Shown one piece after another: positions 2,895 to 43,105 of a stretch of 64,000 nt of DNA. Where the stretch lies: positions 1-64,000 of IMG/VR virus record IMGVR_UViG_3300035070_002905. One strand, given 5' to 3'. The notes under the pieces were generated by a model. It had not been told where the DNA came from. It did not search any database and saw only the letters and a program-made list of their open reading frames with translations. A program made the position numbers and the translations under genes. The stretch is from a virus. Position 1 is the first letter of the stretch; every line of letters starts with the position of its first letter.

Positions 2895-3770
2895 ATGAAA
2901 AAACTTCTAGCTCTTTGCCTGTTGCTGACAGGTTGTACAAGCCCTCAGACAGAGAGCTGGAAAGAGGAGGCGGCTTCGGCCGCTTCTTGTCCTGCACCTG
3001 TCACCGTCGAGGTTCCCGTCGAGAAGATCGTCGAGGTCCCTGTTGAAAAAATCGTAAAGGTTCCCGTCGAGAAGATCGTCGAGGTTCCCGTGGAGAAAAT
3101 CGTCTATGTTACCAAAACCGAAACAGCCCAGTGTCCCAGCCCCAAGCCTGCCCCGAGCCCTAGTCCTAAAAAGCCTAAAGCCCCGAAGCCTAAAGCACCG
3201 AGCGAACAGCCATCCATCAAGGCACCAAAGCAGTACAACCACCCGCTAGACGATTCGGATAAGATGGTGTTCATGATGGGCACCGACGACTACGGACGCT
3301 ACCTGTACGGCGAAGGGGCTATCGCTCCTGGAACGTACAAGAAATTCCTTAAGTATGTAGCGTACTATAAAGAGCAGGGTACTCCTGTAAGCCGCTTAAT
3401 GATGAACAGCCCGGGCGGTTCTATGCGAGAGGGTATTCTAATCGGAGAGTACTTACACGAGAACAACTGGACTACCGATAGCGATAAGCATATGAGCTGC
3501 TATTCTTCATGTGGGATTATCTACATGGGGGGCGTTAAGAAACGCATGCAGTCTGGAGCTCAGGTAGGATTCCACCGTCCGTATATGCCGGGACAGGCAG
3601 ATACTCCGGCGTTCATCAAAGATATGTACCATACGTATAAGCCCTATTGGGAGTACGTAAATGGCTCGCCGTTATTGTACGATGAGTTCATGACTAAATA
3701 CGACCGTGATATGATGCTAGTTATCATGGCGGAAACTGCAAGACAATTTATTAATGTTGAGGTATATTAA
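2895..3770 (+). CDS. periplasmic lipoprotein with ClpP-superfamily (COG3904-like) protease domain
   Basis: 291 residues. Residues 1-14 form a lipoprotein signal ending in the lipobox LTGC (Cys14). Residues 37-72 carry four copies of a VPVEKIV heptad-like repeat, then a Pro/Lys-rich linker (about 80-110), then a ClpP/crotonase-fold domain. That domain shows NSPGGSMREG (171-180, oxyanion loop), CYSSCGIIYMGGVKKR (202-217; Ser204 aligns with the nucleophile of the CxSxC motif in COG3904 proteins) and GFHRPY (His227). Such proteins are periplasmic serine proteases or protease-like proteins. The repeat-plus-linker stalk would let an acylated protein reach across the periplasm. It overlaps the downstream membrane gene by one base (TAATG). 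The protease assignment is from motifs; target unknown. Confidence 0.75.
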   Translation: MKKLLALCLLLTGCTSPQTESWKEEAASAASCPAPVTVEVPVEKIVEVPVEKIVKVPVEKIVEVPVEKIVYVTKTETAQCPSPKPAPSPSPKKPKAPKPKAPSEQPSIKAPKQYNHPLDDSDKMVFMMGTDDYGRYLYGEGAIAPGTYKKFLKYVAYYKEQGTPVSRLMMNSPGGSMREGILIGEYLHENNWTTDSDKHMSCYSSCGIIYMGGVKKRMQSGAQVGFHRPYMPGQADTPAFIKDMYHTYKPYWEYVNGSPLLYDEFMTKYDRDMMLVIMAETARQFINVEVY

Positions 3771-5095
3771 TGCGTAATAAACTTAAAGAATTTCTAGGGA
3801 TTACTCTCCCGGAACATCCAATGATGTGGATCACATTGTTGGTAATGGGTGCTCTAGTAGTATCCTTTAACGTGATGGGGTATGATATCCTATTCGCTGC
3901 AGACCCGTGGTTCGGCATTGCCAGCCCGTTCGGAATCATGCTAGGCACCTGTGAGGTAGCCGTGCTCCTCTGGATGTCCTCGGTGATCAGCGAATGGTAT
4001 AAGTCCAGTCGCATCCTAAAGGTCCTAACCATTCCAGTATTCCTGGCGTTCTCCTTCCTATGCTACTCGGGTATTAACAGCTACCTGACGACTCTGGCTA
4101 CCGCCGAGATTCAGAAGGTAGAAGAAGTTAAGCTGCAGACCGGTCATAACGAAGAGTACATGATCAAGCTTACCGATGAGAACCTAGATCTATCTACTAA
4201 GCTAGACGAGGCTCGTACCGTACGTGATCGTCTAGATGCGTCTATCGCTGCAGCCAACGGTAGCATCAAAGACTTAGACTTCAAGATCAGCGAGCGTATG
4301 CTGAAGGTCGCTAAGTGTGACGCAGTAGCCGACTGTCGACGTGCCGTTAAGGGTTTTGCAGATCAGAAGGTACCGTACCAGAAGAGCGTCTCTAATATGA
4401 ACGCCGATCGAGAGCTAGTGAATACTCGTATCGTTCGCATGGAGAAGCAACTTAACGAGAACGCCGACGAGATCCGTACGCTTACTAAGAAGTCGGTAGT
4501 TCAGCTAAACGATCAGGCCGGCACCGAGTCCAACTTCACGATGAAGAAAGATTCATACGAGAAGATCGTTCTATCGGTTACCGGTCTATTCGGCTGGGTT
4601 CCAGAGAATCCCTTCCAGGTATTCATTGGATTCGTCTCGGCGTTGATCTACCCGATCTACTTCTTCCTGAACCTATTCCTAAGCCTAAACAGCGAAGGTA
4701 ATCAAGAAGTACGTCGTAAGCGTCAGTCCGATAAGGAAGCTCGTCTAGGTCTATTCCAAGAGCTGCGTCTCGACCTGGAACACCATAAGCTTAATCAGTA
4801 CCGTAAGGCCGCTAAGTACTTCCGAGTATGGGCTGCCCGTCGTACTAAGATTAAGTCTGTCGAGAAGCTGGTAGAAGTAGAAGTACCTACAGATACCATC
4901 GTAGAGAAGCGTGTAGAGGTCCCTGTTGAAGTCATTAAGATTCAGAAGGTAACCGAGCAGGTAGTTATTAAAGAGCCTGAGGTGATCATCCACGAACGTC
5001 TGGTACCTGTACCGGAGAATGCATCTGCAGCTGAACTTAAGGAGTTACTGAATGAAGAGCCTCGATCTGACGCAACTCAATCAGAGCAATCGTAA
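3770..5095 (+). CDS. inner-membrane protein with long coiled coil and VEVPVE-type repeats
   Basis: 441 residues. Three hydrophobic segments (about 19-41, 50-72, 84-102) are followed by a long coiled coil (about 105-270) and a fourth segment near 283-308. A basic stretch (RRKRQ) after the last segment predicts a cytoplasmic C-terminus, so the coil would be periplasmic. A Cys pair (KCDAVADCRR) in the coil could form a disulfide. Residues 350-415 contain repeats (EKLVEVEVP, EKRVEVPVEVI, ERLVPVPE) like those of the upstream lipoprotein and the downstream protein, suggesting a shared complex. The gene overlaps the next by 44 bases. Function unknown. Confidence 0.75.
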   Translation: MRNKLKEFLGITLPEHPMMWITLLVMGALVVSFNVMGYDILFAADPWFGIASPFGIMLGTCEVAVLLWMSSVISEWYKSSRILKVLTIPVFLAFSFLCYSGINSYLTTLATAEIQKVEEVKLQTGHNEEYMIKLTDENLDLSTKLDEARTVRDRLDASIAAANGSIKDLDFKISERMLKVAKCDAVADCRRAVKGFADQKVPYQKSVSNMNADRELVNTRIVRMEKQLNENADEIRTLTKKSVVQLNDQAGTESNFTMKKDSYEKIVLSVTGLFGWVPENPFQVFIGFVSALIYPIYFFLNLFLSLNSEGNQEVRRKRQSDKEARLGLFQELRLDLEHHKLNQYRKAAKYFRVWAARRTKIKSVEKLVEVEVPTDTIVEKRVEVPVEVIKIQKVTEQVVIKEPEVIIHERLVPVPENASAAELKELLNEEPRSDATQSEQS

Positions 5096-5462
5096 GACGG
5101 CACTCGAAAAGGCTTCTGCACGTGATCGTCAGGAGTCTAACCGAGAGGTGCGCCATGACCTCGTCCAGTACAAGGCCCAGCGTGCCACTACAATCGATAA
5201 GGATAAGCGCCTACTGAAGCGTGTACTCCTTACGATTGGCTGTCTGTTTATCGCCGGATGTGCCGCACTAGCACTGCTATACGGATACATCCACATTACC
5301 ACTACGCCGATCATTGAAGAGGTTCCCGTGGAAGTCGTCCCTGAAGAATGCTCTCAGGTACGTCGTAACGGAAAGATCTACATGAACTGCGATGGCGTTA
5401 AGGTCGATGGGGTTACCACCCTCGGCCCTAACGTCGATAACGTCCCGGAACTATTGGAGTAA
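5052..5462 (+). CDS. bitopic membrane protein, 136 aa
   Basis: The start lies 44 bases inside the previous gene. The N-terminal 55 residues are charged and soluble, one membrane segment spans about 57-80 (LLTIGCLFIAGCAALALLYGYI), and the rest should be periplasmic. Just outside the membrane is EEVPVEVVPEE, a shortened form of the repeat seen in the two preceding proteins, followed by a possible disulfide pair (ECSQVRRNGKIYMNC). It probably belongs to the same envelope complex. Confidence 0.7.
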   Translation: MKSLDLTQLNQSNRKTALEKASARDRQESNREVRHDLVQYKAQRATTIDKDKRLLKRVLLTIGCLFIAGCAALALLYGYIHITTTPIIEEVPVEVVPEECSQVRRNGKIYMNCDGVKVDGVTTLGPNVDNVPELLE

Positions 5463-5900: not shown

Positions 5901-6284
5901 ATGTGGAAATATCTACTTGCACTCGTCCTGAGCTGCGCCTTCGTGACTCATGCAAATGCACACAGTCATTCGCCGACATCTTTCGGTGGTCCTGACAATC
6001 CTCTGGATGCCGTTACGGTAACTGGCGTTCAGACCGTTACGATTACCGTAGGGAACCTCAACTCGTTCCCTCAGTCATACGAGATCTATGTCGACGACGA
6101 ACTAGTAGGTACTACTTCTGAAGTAGCGCCTAACCTGTTCCGTAAGCTGCCAATTCCTGTCAAACTAAGTAAGCCGAATACACCGGAGATTCATAAGGTG
6201 TGTTCTATTAGCGTCGCTAAAGAAGGCGACATGTTCCGTTCTAAGATTTGTACTGAAGCCAAATTATACTGGAGTAAGAAATGA
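5901..6284 (+). CDS. exported protein, 127 aa
   Basis: Residues 1-20 are a clear Sec signal peptide with an AxA-type site (THANA-HSHS). The mature start is His-rich (HSHSPTSFGG), then comes a beta-rich domain (TVTITVGNLNSFPQSYEIYVDDELVGTT) resembling immunoglobulin-like or chaperone-like folds. It contains a Cys pair (KVCSIS, SKICTE). Periplasmic by prediction, function unknown. It overlaps the next gene by 4 bases. Confidence 0.7.
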   Translation: MWKYLLALVLSCAFVTHANAHSHSPTSFGGPDNPLDAVTVTGVQTVTITVGNLNSFPQSYEIYVDDELVGTTSEVAPNLFRKLPIPVKLSKPNTPEIHKVCSISVAKEGDMFRSKICTEAKLYWSKK

Positions 6285-6649
6285 AAAAGATTATCATAGC
6301 AATCCTAGCAGTCTTCACGTTCGCTGCATGTCAACCTGCTGTAGCAGACACAATCCGCACCGCCGATGGCATTAGCTGTTCGTTCGATGCCGACGACTCT
6401 CCTTACGAAGTCGAAACGTATATCGAAAGCGGTAGTGACGATTACAACAATAACTATAACGATGGGTATAGCAATACCGATCGTGATGATCATAAGGTCG
6501 GAGTTAAGCTAACGTACAAGTTCGGCGGCCCTAAGCGTCTGAATTGTGACACGTTATATCAATTAGAGCTCCGTGACAAGAGCGCTAAAGTTAAGCAGCT
6601 AGAAGCAAAGATTAAGATGCTTGAAGCTGCACAAGATATTAAATGGTGA
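6281..6649 (+). CDS. exported coiled-coil protein, 122 aa
   Basis: An N-terminal Sec signal (MKKIIIAILAVFTFAACQPAVA) may be cleaved after AVA or lipidated at Cys17. The middle is very rich in Asp, Asn and Tyr (SGSDDYNNNYNDGYSNTDRDD), suggesting a disordered or cation-binding loop. A KVGVKLTYKF strand and a C-terminal helical stretch (residues 100-120) follow. Two Cys (SCSF, NCDT) could pair. Last exported protein of the left-end operon; function unknown. Confidence 0.65.
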   Translation: MKKIIIAILAVFTFAACQPAVADTIRTADGISCSFDADDSPYEVETYIESGSDDYNNNYNDGYSNTDRDDHKVGVKLTYKFGGPKRLNCDTLYQLELRDKSAKVKQLEAKIKMLEAAQDIKW

Positions 6650-6862: not shown

Positions 6863-7339
6863 ATGAAAAAATCTATCCTAGCTCTACTTGCTGTTTCTGC
6901 ACTTTCTACTTCTGCTTTCGCTGCTGGTATTAACAAAGGTGACTCTGTCTCTGACGACCTGCGCTTCCAGGAAAAGGTAGTTCGTGTTTGCGGTATCAAG
7001 TCAGCAAGCGATGTAGGCACAATCAAGTTCGGTAATGAAAACGGTACTCAAGAAGCTGCCGCTAAGTTCATCGTAGTTGATAATGGTGCTCATAAGTCTG
7101 ATGGCCAGACTGAAATCTCTATCAATACAAAGCGTATGTCAGAGAACTTAGAGCTGGCAGGTGCGACTGTGAAGTACGCAGTGAACAACATCTACGATCC
7201 GCGTGATAGCATTAACCACGCTCCTGTTTCAGTAGGTGTTACGCAAGAAGTATTCGCAACTGTTGACTCTGATAAAACCCTAGTGAATACTGGCGTTGCA
7301 CGAATCAAAGCAGTTGTAGAAGTACATTGCGGTAACTAA
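6863..7339 (+). CDS. secreted pilin-like protein 1
   Basis: 158 residues with a textbook Sec signal (MKKSILALLAVSALSTSAFA). The mature part has two Cys (RVCGIK near 45, VHCGN at the end), a GTIKFGNENG strand and a C-terminal beta strand, the layout of fimbrial-subunit or spore-coat-U-like Ig folds. RBS GGAG lies 8 bases upstream. It is first of three tandem relatives with the same signal/Cys layout. It could decorate the cell surface or act in the periplasm. The fimbrial fold is inferred from pattern, not proven. Confidence 0.6.
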   Translation: MKKSILALLAVSALSTSAFAAGINKGDSVSDDLRFQEKVVRVCGIKSASDVGTIKFGNENGTQEAAAKFIVVDNGAHKSDGQTEISINTKRMSENLELAGATVKYAVNNIYDPRDSINHAPVSVGVTQEVFATVDSDKTLVNTGVARIKAVVEVHCGN

Positions 7340-7351
7340 GAACCTTGCAAG

Positions 7352-7369
7352 GGGCGTAGAGATGCGCCC
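7352..7369 (+). terminator. weak hairpin between pilin-like genes
   Basis: GGGCG-tagagatg-CGCCC forms a 5-bp GC stem, 12 bases after the stop of the first pilin-like gene. There is no proper T tract (AACTTTAACTT follows), so it is more likely an RNA-stability or attenuating hairpin than a full terminator. Confidence 0.35.
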
Positions 7370-7404
7370 AACTTTAACTTAAATTTAATGATCTGGAGAT
7401 CAAT

Positions 7405-7824
7405 ATGAAAAAGACTATCCTAGCTGTAATCCTTGCTGCAACTTCATTCGGTTCTTTCGCTGCTACTTCTGACAATCTTACATTTACTGCTACCGTTCCT
7501 GCGACGTGTGGCATTGCGATTACCGACGGTGCAGGAACTCTACTCTTTAAGGATGATACCGGTCCTACGGATACAGAGTTCACCCTATCAAGTAATGTAG
7601 CCGACGGTAGAATTAATGTAACGCCTTCTATCACCACGAAAGGTGGTATCGATAAAGACGACGTTGCGTTATCCGTAGCAGGAGGTGGAGTTCTAACTGA
7701 TAGCTCTACTGTCCACCTCGGTGCCGGTGAGTATAAAGCTCGAGCTAGCGTAAATACCTCTAAGAGTAGCGTGGCTGCCGGTGTGGTAGAAGCTGTAGTA
7801 ACTCTAGAAGTAAGCTGTAAATAA
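7405..7824 (+). CDS. secreted pilin-like protein 2
   Basis: 139 residues: signal peptide (MKKTILAVILAATSFGSFA), then TSDNLTFTATVPATCGIAI, the typical start of fimbrial or spore-coat-U-like domains with a first Cys after the opening strand, and a terminal EVSCK Cys. The GAGEYKARASV and VVEAVVTLEVSC strands support an Ig-like fold closed by a disulfide. It has the same leader (GATCTGGAGATCAA) before ATG as gene 1, so the tandem copies include their translation signals. A strong terminator follows. Confidence 0.65.
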   Translation: MKKTILAVILAATSFGSFAATSDNLTFTATVPATCGIAITDGAGTLLFKDDTGPTDTEFTLSSNVADGRINVTPSITTKGGIDKDDVALSVAGGGVLTDSSTVHLGAGEYKARASVNTSKSSVAAGVVEAVVTLEVSCK

Positions 7825-7831
7825 GTAATAT

Positions 7832-7868
7832 CCCCGTAGAACCCTAACCCGGTTCTACGGGGCCTTCT
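7832..7868 (+). terminator. rho-independent terminator
   Basis: A perfect 12-bp stem (CCCCGTAGAACC, 7832-7843) with a 7-base loop pairs with GGTTCTACGGGG (7851-7862) and is followed by a T-rich run. It ends the unit containing pilin-like genes 1 and 2; gene 3 lies 33 bases beyond, so readthrough or another promoter must serve it. Confidence 0.85.
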
Positions 7869-7895
7869 TTATTCTTTTTCTTTTCGGAGATCCAA

Positions 7896-8366
7896 ATGAA
7901 AAAACTAATTCTAGCTACAATCCTAGCTGCGACTTCACTCACTTCTGTTGCAGCAACTGACTCTAAGGGCCTATCCTTCAGCCATGTAGTCGACCCTACT
8001 TGCAGTATAGTCATTGAAAATTCTACTGGCTCTATCGAGTTTAACGACTCGGAAGTAAGAGAAGATACCATGGCTTGGGTGAAAGTACGTAGTAATGTAT
8101 CTAGTCACCTTGTTACTGTAAACATGTCAGAGGGGACTGCGTCAAGTAGTCTACAGGGGATGCCGTTCGACTACAAATTTTCCGGATCCTCTCAGGATAT
8201 AGGTAACGGTGTATACGTGGATGCGGGGGAAGATTTACAGGTTCCTATTAATCAGTATACTGGAGAGACTAGCTTGTGGGTAGCAGCATCAGTTAAAGCA
8301 GACTCGGCCTCTCTAGGTTCTGGTACTCACACTATTACCTCGACAATCACTGCAAACTGTAACTAG
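7896..8366 (+). CDS. secreted pilin-like protein 3
   Basis: 156 residues, signal peptide MKKLILATILAATSLTSVA, then GLSFSHVVDPTCSIVIENSTGSIEF with the first Cys near residue 38 and a terminal ITANCN Cys, matching the layout of the two upstream relatives. A CGGAG RBS precedes ATG. The mature sequences of the three proteins have diverged strongly while signal and disulfide positions are kept, which suggests selection for variation at the surface. Function unknown. Confidence 0.6.
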   Translation: MKKLILATILAATSLTSVAATDSKGLSFSHVVDPTCSIVIENSTGSIEFNDSEVREDTMAWVKVRSNVSSHLVTVNMSEGTASSSLQGMPFDYKFSGSSQDIGNGVYVDAGEDLQVPINQYTGETSLWVAASVKADSASLGSGTHTITSTITANCN

Positions 8367-23169: not shown

Positions 23170-24057
23170 ATGAAAAAGATCCTAATCGCTTCTGCTATCG
23201 CACTTGCAACTTCTCCGGCTTTCGCTTCAATCCAGGCTCCTGCTGCAGATCAATTTGTAGTATCTGGTGAACTGGCTGCTGGTGGTTACTCTAACGATGG
23301 TAAAGTGATCAACGATGGTGTAACTGGTATCGAGCTGGGCGTTAGCTATATGAACGGTCCGTTGGTAGGTTACGCTGAGATCGATGCTGATCTTGACAAT
23401 GACTTCGGCGTAGACCATACTGGTTCAGATGCAGTTGACTTGGACAAACTATGGTTCGGCTACCAGACAAAAGTTGGTACTCTATCATACGGTGTGGAAA
23501 ATGATACAGCCCTGGATAAGATCGATGGTGCTGGCGACCAGTCTATCGAGTTCGGCCTAAGCGCGGCGGATGCATCTGATGCATTCAACGTGGTGAAATG
23601 GGAGGGCGGCTACGGTCCTGTAGTATACGGCGTGTCTACTTCTGATACAGGTGATGACGCAGGTGATGACTTCACGTTCAACACTTACGCTGGTATCGAA
23701 GACGGCATTCTTAAGATGTACGTAGGTTACGAGCAACGTGACTCTGACTTCGAAGTTCTGACGGTTACTGGTAACGCTACTCTGGGCGATTTCGTCCTAG
23801 GTGCAAACGTATGGCGTGAAGGTGAAGACCTTGACAAAGACGGTTACTACGTATCTGCAGGCTACCAGATTAACGAACTGTACATCGGTGGTGGTGCTGG
23901 TCGTAAGAGCGAAGACGATAATGGCAACATCGAAGACGTGGCTAACATCGGCGTATCGTACGCGTTCACTGATCAGGTAGAAGGTCTATTCGACTACCAA
24001 CGTGAGATCGACGCAGAGAAGGACAACTTCTTCGCGAAAGTAGCTTACAATTTCTAA
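23170..24057 (+). CDS. phage-encoded outer-membrane porin-like protein
   Basis: 295 residues: Sec signal (MKKILIASAIALATSPAFA), then alternating amphipathic beta strands with many Gly/Asp/Tyr (GVSYMNGPLVGYAEIDADL, LWFGYQTKVGTLSYGVEND, YVSAGYQINELYIGGGAG) and a C-terminal strand ending in Phe (FFAKVAYNF), the recognition signal of the BAM machinery. This is the build of general Gram-negative porins of the marine Vibrio/Shewanella type. Phage porins (for example Lc of PA-2) replace host porins and change phage receptors. It has its own promoter and terminator, so it is a stand-alone unit. Its codon use is more highly optimised than that of the neighbours. Confidence 0.8.
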   Translation: MKKILIASAIALATSPAFASIQAPAADQFVVSGELAAGGYSNDGKVINDGVTGIELGVSYMNGPLVGYAEIDADLDNDFGVDHTGSDAVDLDKLWFGYQTKVGTLSYGVENDTALDKIDGAGDQSIEFGLSAADASDAFNVVKWEGGYGPVVYGVSTSDTGDDAGDDFTFNTYAGIEDGILKMYVGYEQRDSDFEVLTVTGNATLGDFVLGANVWREGEDLDKDGYYVSAGYQINELYIGGGAGRKSEDDNGNIEDVANIGVSYAFTDQVEGLFDYQREIDAEKDNFFAKVAYNF

Positions 24058-34665: not shown

Positions 34666-36045
34666 ATGCAGATCAATCCATTAAATCACCTTGGTAAAAT
34701 CGCACTAGGTCTATTTACGGCTATAGTAGTATTCACTGGTATGGGTTACAACGATTCAGGTGTATCGACACGTGTGCAACAGCCAATGTTCGGTTACAAC
34801 TGGATTACTGAAGAAGGTTACTACTTCAAGCTTCCGCTAGTCAGCCGTGACCGTTCGTACGACCAGATCATTACGGTTGCCGTAACGACTAACGAAGACA
34901 TCTGTAATACTGCATCTGTGTGTATTGCTCCAGATCGTGCAGGTATTCCGTTCGCAGATACTTACCGCATGCAGTTAGAATACCAGATGCGTTTCCGCAT
35001 TCCGGTAATCGAGTCTGGTCTTGACGAGCAGGGTATCCTTAAGGCTATCGGTCTTGAAGAGATGCACGGCGACGTTAAGAGCCTAGAGAACCTGCGTGGT
35101 AACACTCTACTACCATTCGCACAGACTCTGGTAAGCGATACTGCTAACCAAATGCTTGCGACTAAAGTGGCACAGGGTGGCCAGAACGCATTCCGTACTC
35201 GTCTAGCAGATCAGGCTAGTAATGGTATGCTGGTAACTACCGTACAGAAAGTTCCAGTTACAGCTGAAATTGCAGACACTTCAAGTGATCGTGATGCATC
35301 TACTACTAAGATGGGCCAGCAGTTCATCACCCAGGTAGTTGTACATGAAGATGATAAAGGCCTTGCTCTACGTAATCCTACATCTATCTCTGCGTACGGT
35401 GTGACTCTAGTTCCTAACTCTATTCAGATCATTAAGGCTACGCCGGTTGGTCGTCTAGTAACTTACATCGATAACAAGCAGAAGAACATTGCCCTGCAGA
35501 TCGAGCAAGAGGAAACTCAGAAGCTACAACGTCAGAAGGCTAAGACTGCACAGCTTAAAGGTGCTACTGACTTAGTTACTCGTACTAACCAGTTGAACAT
35601 CGAAAAGGCTGAAGCTGTAATCGCCGCTGAGAAGCGTAACGAAGAGGCTGCACTACAGGCCGAGAAAGAGTTGATCGAAGCTAATAAAGTTAAAGACCTG
35701 GCGGTAGTTGACAAGGCTCGTGAACTTGAAATCTCTACGGCTAACCTTGGTATCCAAGAAGCTAACTACAAGTCTACTAAGTTTGAAGCTCAGGCTATCA
35801 AAGAGAAGGGTCTTGCAGAGGCACAGGTTGCTAAAGCTAAACTTGGTGCGAAGAATGCCAACAAAGAGATCTACCTTGCAGAGCTAGACGTTGAGAAGAC
35901 TCGACTAATGGCTGACGCTCTACCTAAGATGCAGATCACTGGTCCTAGCGTAGTAATGGGCGCAGGTGGTAACGGTACTGGTATGGTACAAGATCTACTA
36001 TCTACAAGCTTAGCTAAAGGTCTTCTAGACCCTAAATCTAAGTAA
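34666..36045 (+). CDS. SPFH/band-7 domain membrane protein
   Basis: 459 residues. An N-terminal membrane segment (about 11-28) is followed by a band-7-like beta/alpha domain (YYFKLPLVSRDRSYDQIITVAVTT...; SISAYGVTLVPNSIQIIKATPVG) and a long charged coiled coil (about 270-425) rich in EKAEAVIAAEKRNEEA-type heptads, ending in a Gly-rich tail. Such proteins form ring- or cage-like oligomers on membranes. The gene is flanked by hairpins on both sides and is a stand-alone unit with RBS GAGGAA. Related SPFH proteins are found in other large phages; role unknown, possibly scaffolding at the membrane. Confidence 0.75.
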   Translation: MQINPLNHLGKIALGLFTAIVVFTGMGYNDSGVSTRVQQPMFGYNWITEEGYYFKLPLVSRDRSYDQIITVAVTTNEDICNTASVCIAPDRAGIPFADTYRMQLEYQMRFRIPVIESGLDEQGILKAIGLEEMHGDVKSLENLRGNTLLPFAQTLVSDTANQMLATKVAQGGQNAFRTRLADQASNGMLVTTVQKVPVTAEIADTSSDRDASTTKMGQQFITQVVVHEDDKGLALRNPTSISAYGVTLVPNSIQIIKATPVGRLVTYIDNKQKNIALQIEQEETQKLQRQKAKTAQLKGATDLVTRTNQLNIEKAEAVIAAEKRNEEAALQAEKELIEANKVKDLAVVDKARELEISTANLGIQEANYKSTKFEAQAIKEKGLAEAQVAKAKLGAKNANKEIYLAELDVEKTRLMADALPKMQITGPSVVMGAGGNGTGMVQDLLSTSLAKGLLDPKSK

Positions 36046-42472: not shown

Positions 42473-43105
42473 ATGAAAAAGCTAATAGCGTTGTTATTTG
42501 TACTTATACTTTCAGGCTGTGCTAATGGAATACCTACTATGAGTTATTCTAGTACTACGCCGGAAGCCCTTGAGAATACTGAAAAACTATTCGTCGGAGT
42601 CCCCGTACTGCTAAGTATGGAAGGTTCTTCTGCACGTCTTAATGAGGACTGGATCGTCACCGTTAAGCACAACTCGCTAATCATGGGTCTACAAGGAGTA
42701 GAATCCTACGAACACCCTACGTGTGATATAGCATTGATTAAATCTAAAGGAGATAACGTAGTACCTACAGGTAAGTTGTATTCAAACGATAAGGTAGTCC
42801 ATGTCGGCTATCCCGTTGGAATGCCCCTGTCTGTGAATGAAGGAGTTTACCTAGGAGATACCTCCGTTCGAGGTTGGGGTGAATGTTCTTACTCTGCTAC
42901 TACCGGAGTCGTAATGAGCGGTATGAGTGGAGGTGGCGTGTATAACGCCGCAGGAGAATTAGTAGGAGTAAACCATGGGTTTGCTACGGGTGAGCTAGTC
43001 TGGCCCGACGGACGCACGGCAGATTCGCCAGCAGTATTCCTATCGCTATTCGCGGTAGAGGATTGGATCGAAGAAGTAACAGGTTTAAAGTTGTATGCTA
43101 ATTAA
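42473..43105 (+). CDS. periplasmic trypsin-like serine protease lipoprotein
   Basis: 210 residues. Lipobox LSGC with Cys16 (MKKLIALLFVLILSGC). A chymotrypsin-fold protease follows with a complete catalytic set: WIVTVKHN (His66), CDIALIK (Asp85) and GVVMSGMSGGGVYN (Ser152, GxSGG). GVNHGF is the usual late strand. Such proteins cut envelope or secreted proteins. It is the second periplasmic protease in the window besides the ClpP-like one. Promoter and RBS are directly upstream, so its expression is independent. Confidence 0.85.
   Translation: MKKLIALLFVLILSGCANGIPTMSYSSTTPEALENTEKLFVGVPVLLSMEGSSARLNEDWIVTVKHNSLIMGLQGVESYEHPTCDIALIKSKGDNVVPTGKLYSNDKVVHVGYPVGMPLSVNEGVYLGDTSVRGWGECSYSATTGVVMSGMSGGGVYNAAGELVGVNHGFATGELVWPDGRTADSPAVFLSLFAVEDWIEEVTGLKLYAN

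Follow-up and report, generated by a model that had tools for sequence, protein, structure and literature searches.

Proteases of the ClpP class are known at the membrane from the PH1510-N/NfeD group of stomatin-specific serine proteases (PDB 6m4b, 3bpp and 3viv), and among defence systems Zorya type II is an inner-membrane, envelope-facing device whose mechanism has been reported (PMC11890865). Here, we describe a locus that recalls both, a cassette of three consecutive genes, gp1, gp2 and gp3, at positions 2895-5462 of a 64,000-nucleotide stretch of viral DNA (the window), which forms positions 1 to 64,000 of the 172,110-base IMG/VR record IMGVR_UViG_3300035070_002905. All features of the window mentioned below lie on the plus strand, and the three open reading frames (ORFs) were confirmed where a sequence-only reading of the window had placed them. 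The three genes are one unit, which is carried by some gammaproteobacteria, mostly in defence islands, as well as by this phage. The unit is undescribed as far as tested: it was not found in the literature on the repeat in phage proteins, on ClpP-like anti-phage systems or on COG3904, its proteins had no match above the cut-off in Pfam or NCBIfam, and PADLOC 2.0.0 gave no meaningful family match, with the sole exception of a bacterial gp3 (locus L229) that matched ZorA3 at 4.6e-4 over a coiled-coil stretch.

The gp1 gene (2895-3770) encodes a 291-residue lipoprotein with a C-terminal ClpP-fold domain (residues 122-291; 3258-3767), as indicated by the ORF, AlphaFold2 (AF2), Foldseek and orthologue identity. 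AF2 modelled this domain with a predicted local distance difference test (pLDDT) score above 90. At E 2.8e-9 over about 164 columns, the PH1510-N membrane protease was the best Foldseek match, and structural alignment to ClpP with VIA-align gave a Z of about 14 over 150-160 aligned residues at 12-17% identity. A PDB sequence search with the domain returned nothing. The label of a ClpP-like protein, given in the sequence-only reading, holds at the level of the fold. The domain has S-P-G-G at residues 172-175, Ser204 within C-x-S-x-C and His227 within G-x-H, and neither Ser204 nor His227 varied among 12 aligned gp1 relatives. Upstream of the domain lie a signal peptide with a lipobox (LLTG-C14; 2895-2936), which predicts lipidation of Cys14, and a disordered stalk of residues 15-121 (2937-3257; AF2 pLDDT about 40-50). 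The domain shares 50-55% identity with the bacterial orthologues compared, and the stalk only 16-23%. There is thus strong support for a lipid-anchored gp1 in which a ClpP fold with conserved Ser and His is carried on a disordered tether; its proteolytic activity is putative.

This arrangement differs from that of the described relatives. In the solved PH1510-N entries, S97 and K138 mutants are annotated, whereas gp1, a lipoprotein, has a disordered stalk and keeps a ClpP-type His227; its ClpP-fold domain runs to the last residue, 291, so that the C-terminal transmembrane (TM) region and OB domain of the NfeD/PH1510 type are not present, and no match was found that would tie gp2 or gp3 to stomatin. 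With ClpP, gp1 has the fold and the Ser/His motif in common, but it carries an export signal and has no ATPase partner gene. In E. coli, the residue that follows the lipidated Cys (the +2 position) bears on the inner- or outer-membrane destination of a lipoprotein. Since this residue is Thr in gp1 and mostly Ser or Thr in the orthologues, an outer-membrane location is favoured, and gp1 would sit there. Phage lipoproteins of superinfection exclusion, such as Llp of T5, are reportedly also phage-coded and proposed to act in the envelope; gp1 differs from Llp by its enzyme fold and its two inner-membrane partners.

Hydropathy and charge agreed with the earlier assignment of gp2 and gp3 to the inner membrane. 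The 441-residue gp2 (3770-5095), assessed by AF2, alignment and charge topology, is predicted from nine sequences to have its N-terminus inside and four TM segments, with an external segment between the third and the fourth and a basic C-terminal tail in the cytoplasm. The external segment is modelled as an antiparallel coiled-coil hairpin (residues 111-275; 4100-4594), with a pLDDT of about 90-95 over much of residues 131-240, although the model rests on a shallow alignment. Cys183 and Cys189 at its turn were invariant in the nine sequences, which fits the expectation for a periplasmic disulfide. With gp2, Foldseek returned coiled-coil look-alikes and nothing below 0.001. In the tail, a tract rich in Val and Glu (V/E) at residues 361-402 (4850-4975; AF2 pLDDT about 30), predicted to be cytoplasmic and present with varying length in all orthologues, precedes the conserved C-terminal motif P-x-V-I-I-H-E-R-x-x-P-V-P...E-L-x-E-L-L-N (4976-5053; 58-69% identity across orthologues).

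The gp3 gene (5052-5462) overlaps gp2 by 44 bp and encodes a bitopic inner-membrane protein of 136 residues with its N-terminus inside, as read from the ORF, alignment and charge topology. Its cytoplasmic side begins with the conserved motif M-[KR]-S-[LM]-D-L (5052-5078) and continues with a variable part. The single TM is followed directly by a short V/E tract, predicted to be periplasmic (5304-5345), and by the conserved periplasmic end E-C-x-Q-x-R-R-x-G...C-D-G-V...P-x-L (5346-5453), which shares 50-67% identity across orthologues and contains the invariant Cys100 and Cys113. Taken together, it is strongly supported that gp2 and gp3 are inner-membrane proteins, the conserved parts of which are predicted to be periplasmic.

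The link between the three genes is provided by their distribution in bacteria. When the gp1 domain was compared with 398 Pseudomonadota genomes, two matches were obtained (E about 1e-65, 51-53% identity), and both genomes hold all three orthologues in order. In the family to which one of the genomes (G334) belongs, nine of 247 genomes carried gp2; these same nine, and no others, carried gp1 (E<1e-90) and gp3 (E<1e-60). Altogether, ten bacterial genomes contained the cassette, and the gene order and the gp2/gp3 overlap were kept at all intact loci; at the locus of G1193, gp2 is interrupted and adjoins a transposase-like gene. Within the gammaproteobacteria the cassette is sporadic (1/369 genomes in the class, 3/394 in the order and 9/247 in the family), and plasmids contained no gp2. 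The cassettes of G334 and G1212 are near-identical but lie in different surroundings, which indicates that the unit moves. Relative to the bacterial copies, the phage cassette is placed in their midst, with low support.

The overlapping genes for a lipoprotein and an inner-membrane coiled-coil protein in a phage also raise the question of lysis, in which an outer-membrane lipoprotein and an inner-membrane partner would disrupt the envelope late in infection in the manner of spanins. A two-component spanin consists of an inner-membrane protein with one TM and a small, non-enzymatic lipoprotein, while gp2 has four TMs and gp1 a 170-residue ClpP-fold domain with conserved Ser and His. Moreover, the trio resides on bacterial chromosomes with no phage structural genes in view, and we regard a lytic role as extremely improbable.

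The surroundings of the bacterial copies point to defence. By means of PADLOC, we compared the proteins encoded up to 12 kb from each of eight independent cassettes with those of 16 control 12-kb stretches from the same genomes, arranged in eight sets. Matches at E<1e-60 were present within about 12 kb of six of the eight cassettes and in none of the eight control sets (two-sided Fisher test, about 0.007, worked by hand), the best control match being 2.5e-48. In G1230, the genes gp1-gp2-gp3-orf115-ZorA2-ZorB2-ZorE2 are contiguous on one strand (minus; L252, 2142-9351) and thus join the cassette to a Zorya type II system. PD-Lambda-1 lies about 0.2 kb from the cassette in G1138 and 0.7 kb from it in G100; DndB/C/D are near the cassette of G1212, AIPR/MzaE and a methyltransferase, with HerA/NurA, near that of G334, and PtuA (Septu) near that of G1193. 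In G1175, DarT/DarG were detected at 8e-40 and 8e-49, i.e., more weakly than the threshold. That the bacterial copies are mostly found in defence islands is therefore strongly supported. As a separate observation, look-alikes of orf115 directly follow gp3 at three further loci (L249-L251).

The contiguity with Zorya could also be read in the opposite sense, namely that with the cassette the phage acquired a means of disabling host systems at the envelope, for instance Zorya. However, bacteria hold the cassette beside their own defence genes, which is the place expected of a partner or an independent system and not of an inhibitor, and counter-defence appears to us very improbable. The cassette is also distinct from Zorya itself: no MotA/MotB homology was found in it, and its predicted enzyme is a protease, not a nuclease.

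We give an even chance to the explanation that the three proteins make up a single protease system spanning the envelope, accessory in some gammaproteobacteria and also phage-carried, which serves phage exclusion or defence. In such a system, gp2 and gp3 would form an inner-membrane platform, and gp1, tethered to the outer membrane, would reach it by means of the stalk. A breach of the envelope by an incoming phage might lead the platform to position or activate gp1, which would then cleave proteins crossing the periplasm and so block infection; the phage-carried cassette would act as superinfection exclusion. The more specific proposal, an undescribed anti-phage system in which a periplasmic, tethered ClpP-like protease run by the gp2-hairpin/gp3 platform destroys incoming phage proteins, and which the phage uses for superinfection exclusion, we place somewhat below even. 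If true, it would constitute a periplasmic protease arm of bacterial immunity, acting at the passage of DNA and protein through the envelope, with a phage carrying the same device. To our knowledge, few defence enzymes act at this stage of infection.

Several points weigh against the defence explanation. Both proteolysis and phage exclusion are putative roles. At the position of the third catalytic acid (Asp in ClpP), phage gp1 has Met, while the bacterial members have Asp or Glu, in a region where the alignment is loose. Phage gp1 and gp2, searched directly against phage records and viral contigs, returned nothing, and neither did family alignments of gp1, gp2 and gp3 against viral contigs; with no close relative found in any other viral contig or any phage record, the phage copy is a single case. 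With respect to the islands, the 1e-60 threshold was chosen after the matches had been seen, so the comparison is indicative and does not have the standing of a preregistered test, and at 1e-40 the controls also hold a few matches (a kinase, a regulator). The G865 locus has no known defence gene nearby, and defence islands collect non-defence cargo too.

The main rival is envelope quality control, in which a periplasmic ClpP-like protease with a membrane adaptor would clear damaged or mislocalised envelope proteins, the bacterial cassette would be island cargo, and the phage copy would protect the envelope of the infected cell. The best solved relative of gp1, a stomatin-specific membrane protease, is in keeping with this, and so are the further secreted and lipoprotein genes encoded by the phage. 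Alphaproteobacteria offer a parallel as well. Plasmids of Rhodovulum, Phaeobacter, Ensifer and Sinorhizobium encode ClpP-like proteins that adjoin a protein of about 430 residues with the layout of gp2 (three TMs, a long helical part, one TM). At each of the 80 genome loci fetched for this partner, a ClpP-like gene overlaps the partner gene or follows it closely, a constancy that looks like the mark of a stable function. A strict distance rule counted 18 such pairs, the open frames being overlapping, and 80 of 80 were read from the coordinates. The ClpP-like domain is homologous to that of gp1 (tblastn down to 1e-13), and the partner is alike in layout by hydropathy. In contrast to gp1, the Ensifer and Phaeobacter copies that were read have a TM anchor on the ClpP-like protein; in this pair the partner gene lies upstream, and no gp3 was identified. 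Homology between gp2 and the partner was not detected (hhalign probability 0.8%). Since the partners have no profile similarity, the parallel is a likeness of layout only, and this, together with the sporadic occurrence of the gammaproteobacterial cassette and its clustering with defence systems, makes quality control possible but doubtful in our assessment. Even if the cassette were a housekeeping device, three uncharacterised protein families travel as a unit. In alphaproteobacteria, the pairing of the ClpP-like membrane protein with the four-TM helical protein is itself conserved (L094-L097 and L101-L180), and at one locus (L176) both are in one open frame, fused or frameshifted.

The sequence-only reading had joined the three proteins by another argument, namely that their V/E repeats would zip into a shared beta structure and assemble a trans-envelope machine. 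Co-occurrence in nine of 247 genomes in the same order bears out that the genes belong together, and a trans-envelope layout is likewise supported; the repeats as the reason are not. The repeats themselves are real. The gp1 DNA contains a true tandem array at 3005-3104 (Tandem Repeats Finder: period 24 bp, 4.2 copies) coding for (VPVEKIVE)x4; its 48-bp unit is 91% alike, which suggests that the gp1 repeat has expanded recently. Near its C-terminal end gp2 has VEKLVEVEVP...VEKRVEVPVEVIKIQK, and gp3 has a single short EEVPVEVVPEE, which alone could be due to chance and is meaningful only because V/E tracts recur there in the orthologues. Among the ORFs of the window, only gp1, gp2 and gp3 matched a motif expression for V/E/P. 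Copying of the gp1 array from gp2 DNA was considered, and there was no sign of it (the best 24-mer agreed at 20/24 positions, where the null gave 19.2 on average and 21 at most).

The gp1 array lies in the stalk between lipid anchor and protease domain, which is disordered in the AF2 model. Regular expressions for VPVE-type motifs gave six matches in phage gp1 and zero in the bacterial gp1 stalks, which, where compared, carry PEQQ, DKAHELKGKPRE, KEKEKE or PK-rich sequence in place of VPVEK. Every gp2 and gp3 orthologue retains its V/E tract, and the tracts of gp1 and gp3 would share a membrane side, both of which favour the shared beta structure. The gp2 tract, on the other hand, is cytoplasmic and those of gp1 and gp3 periplasmic according to charge topology; placement on opposite sides of the inner membrane had been named in advance as evidence against the zip, and it makes a structure of all three unlikely. 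The gp1 and gp2 tracts are disordered in AF2 monomers. The EKIVEVP heptad is also found in alveolins, proteins of the apicomplexan inner membrane complex, where it was modelled as beta-ribbons only when partners were present (PMC12465100). The alveolin domain has about 13 VP-rich repeats of 12 residues (PMC12465100), a long domain that the four 8-residue repeats of gp1 do not match, and we treat the short linker tracts of the cassette as convergent low complexity.

Similar repeats also occur outside the cassette. When 2.9 million viral contigs were scanned for VEVPVEKIVEVPVE at the level of exact degenerate DNA, nine stretches came up, in proteins unrelated to gp1. One of them is a four-TM phage membrane protein with eighty relatives, whose TM cores are 78-100% identical. 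In the tails of this family, VPVEK is swapped for EEPIEEVV, VNEGVNEG, VTDQ, KAEVNDIP or other repeats, often before a short RLSYVK-like end. Because the repeats recur as linkers in unrelated proteins and are swapped in the tails of one family, V/E/P tracts are recurrent spacers and give no proof of partnership. As a link, they are rejected for gp1, whose VPVEK is private to the phage, and for gp2 with gp1 or gp3 on topology, and the zip as a whole is very improbable; in view of the alveolin ribbons, a small chance exists that tracts of gp1 and gp3, or of two gp3 molecules, would make contact. The V/E repeats are mostly exchangeable, membrane-proximal spacers; the sequence-only reading was partly right, about the partners and the trans-envelope layout, but for the wrong reason. 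VPVEK-type repeats in phage membrane proteins serve as a clear control case, being exchangeable linkers that alone are not evidence of interaction. In its own right, the four-TM family (L014-L093), with a near-constant core and a hypervariable repetitive tail, is a natural experiment on linker turnover. A bacterial protein of about 210 residues (L222, L223 and L225), encoded beside an Hsp70-like gene, has one TM followed immediately by VEKPVEKIVEVEK repeats.

In the window, the cassette is flanked by phage-type genes. Upstream, a 501-residue protein (1387-2892) belongs to phrog_1735 (E 1e-96), a family of unnamed function with 476 phage records from many hosts, and downstream there are small secreted proteins in common with Vibrio phages. 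Three secreted proteins (6863-8366) stand in a row, with similar size and pattern and a pilin- or coat-like appearance; Vibrio phage D479 encodes a protein similar to this trio, adjoining relatives of the window region 5901-6649. A 459-residue membrane-anchored protein with a long helical part (34666-36045) appeared SPFH/prohibitin-like by eye, but its candidacy as a stomatin-like partner of gp1 was unsupported, and a PDB sequence search gave nothing useful. A secreted 295-residue protein (23170-24057) has the look of an outer-membrane porin (signal peptide, beta-like pattern, terminal Phe), with no match in a PDB sequence search. The window also encodes a second lipoprotein protease, of the trypsin-like type (42473-43105), which weakly matches MucD/DegP (E 1.3e-4) and resembles a peptidase S1 lipoprotein of Vibrio phage 2.275.O.

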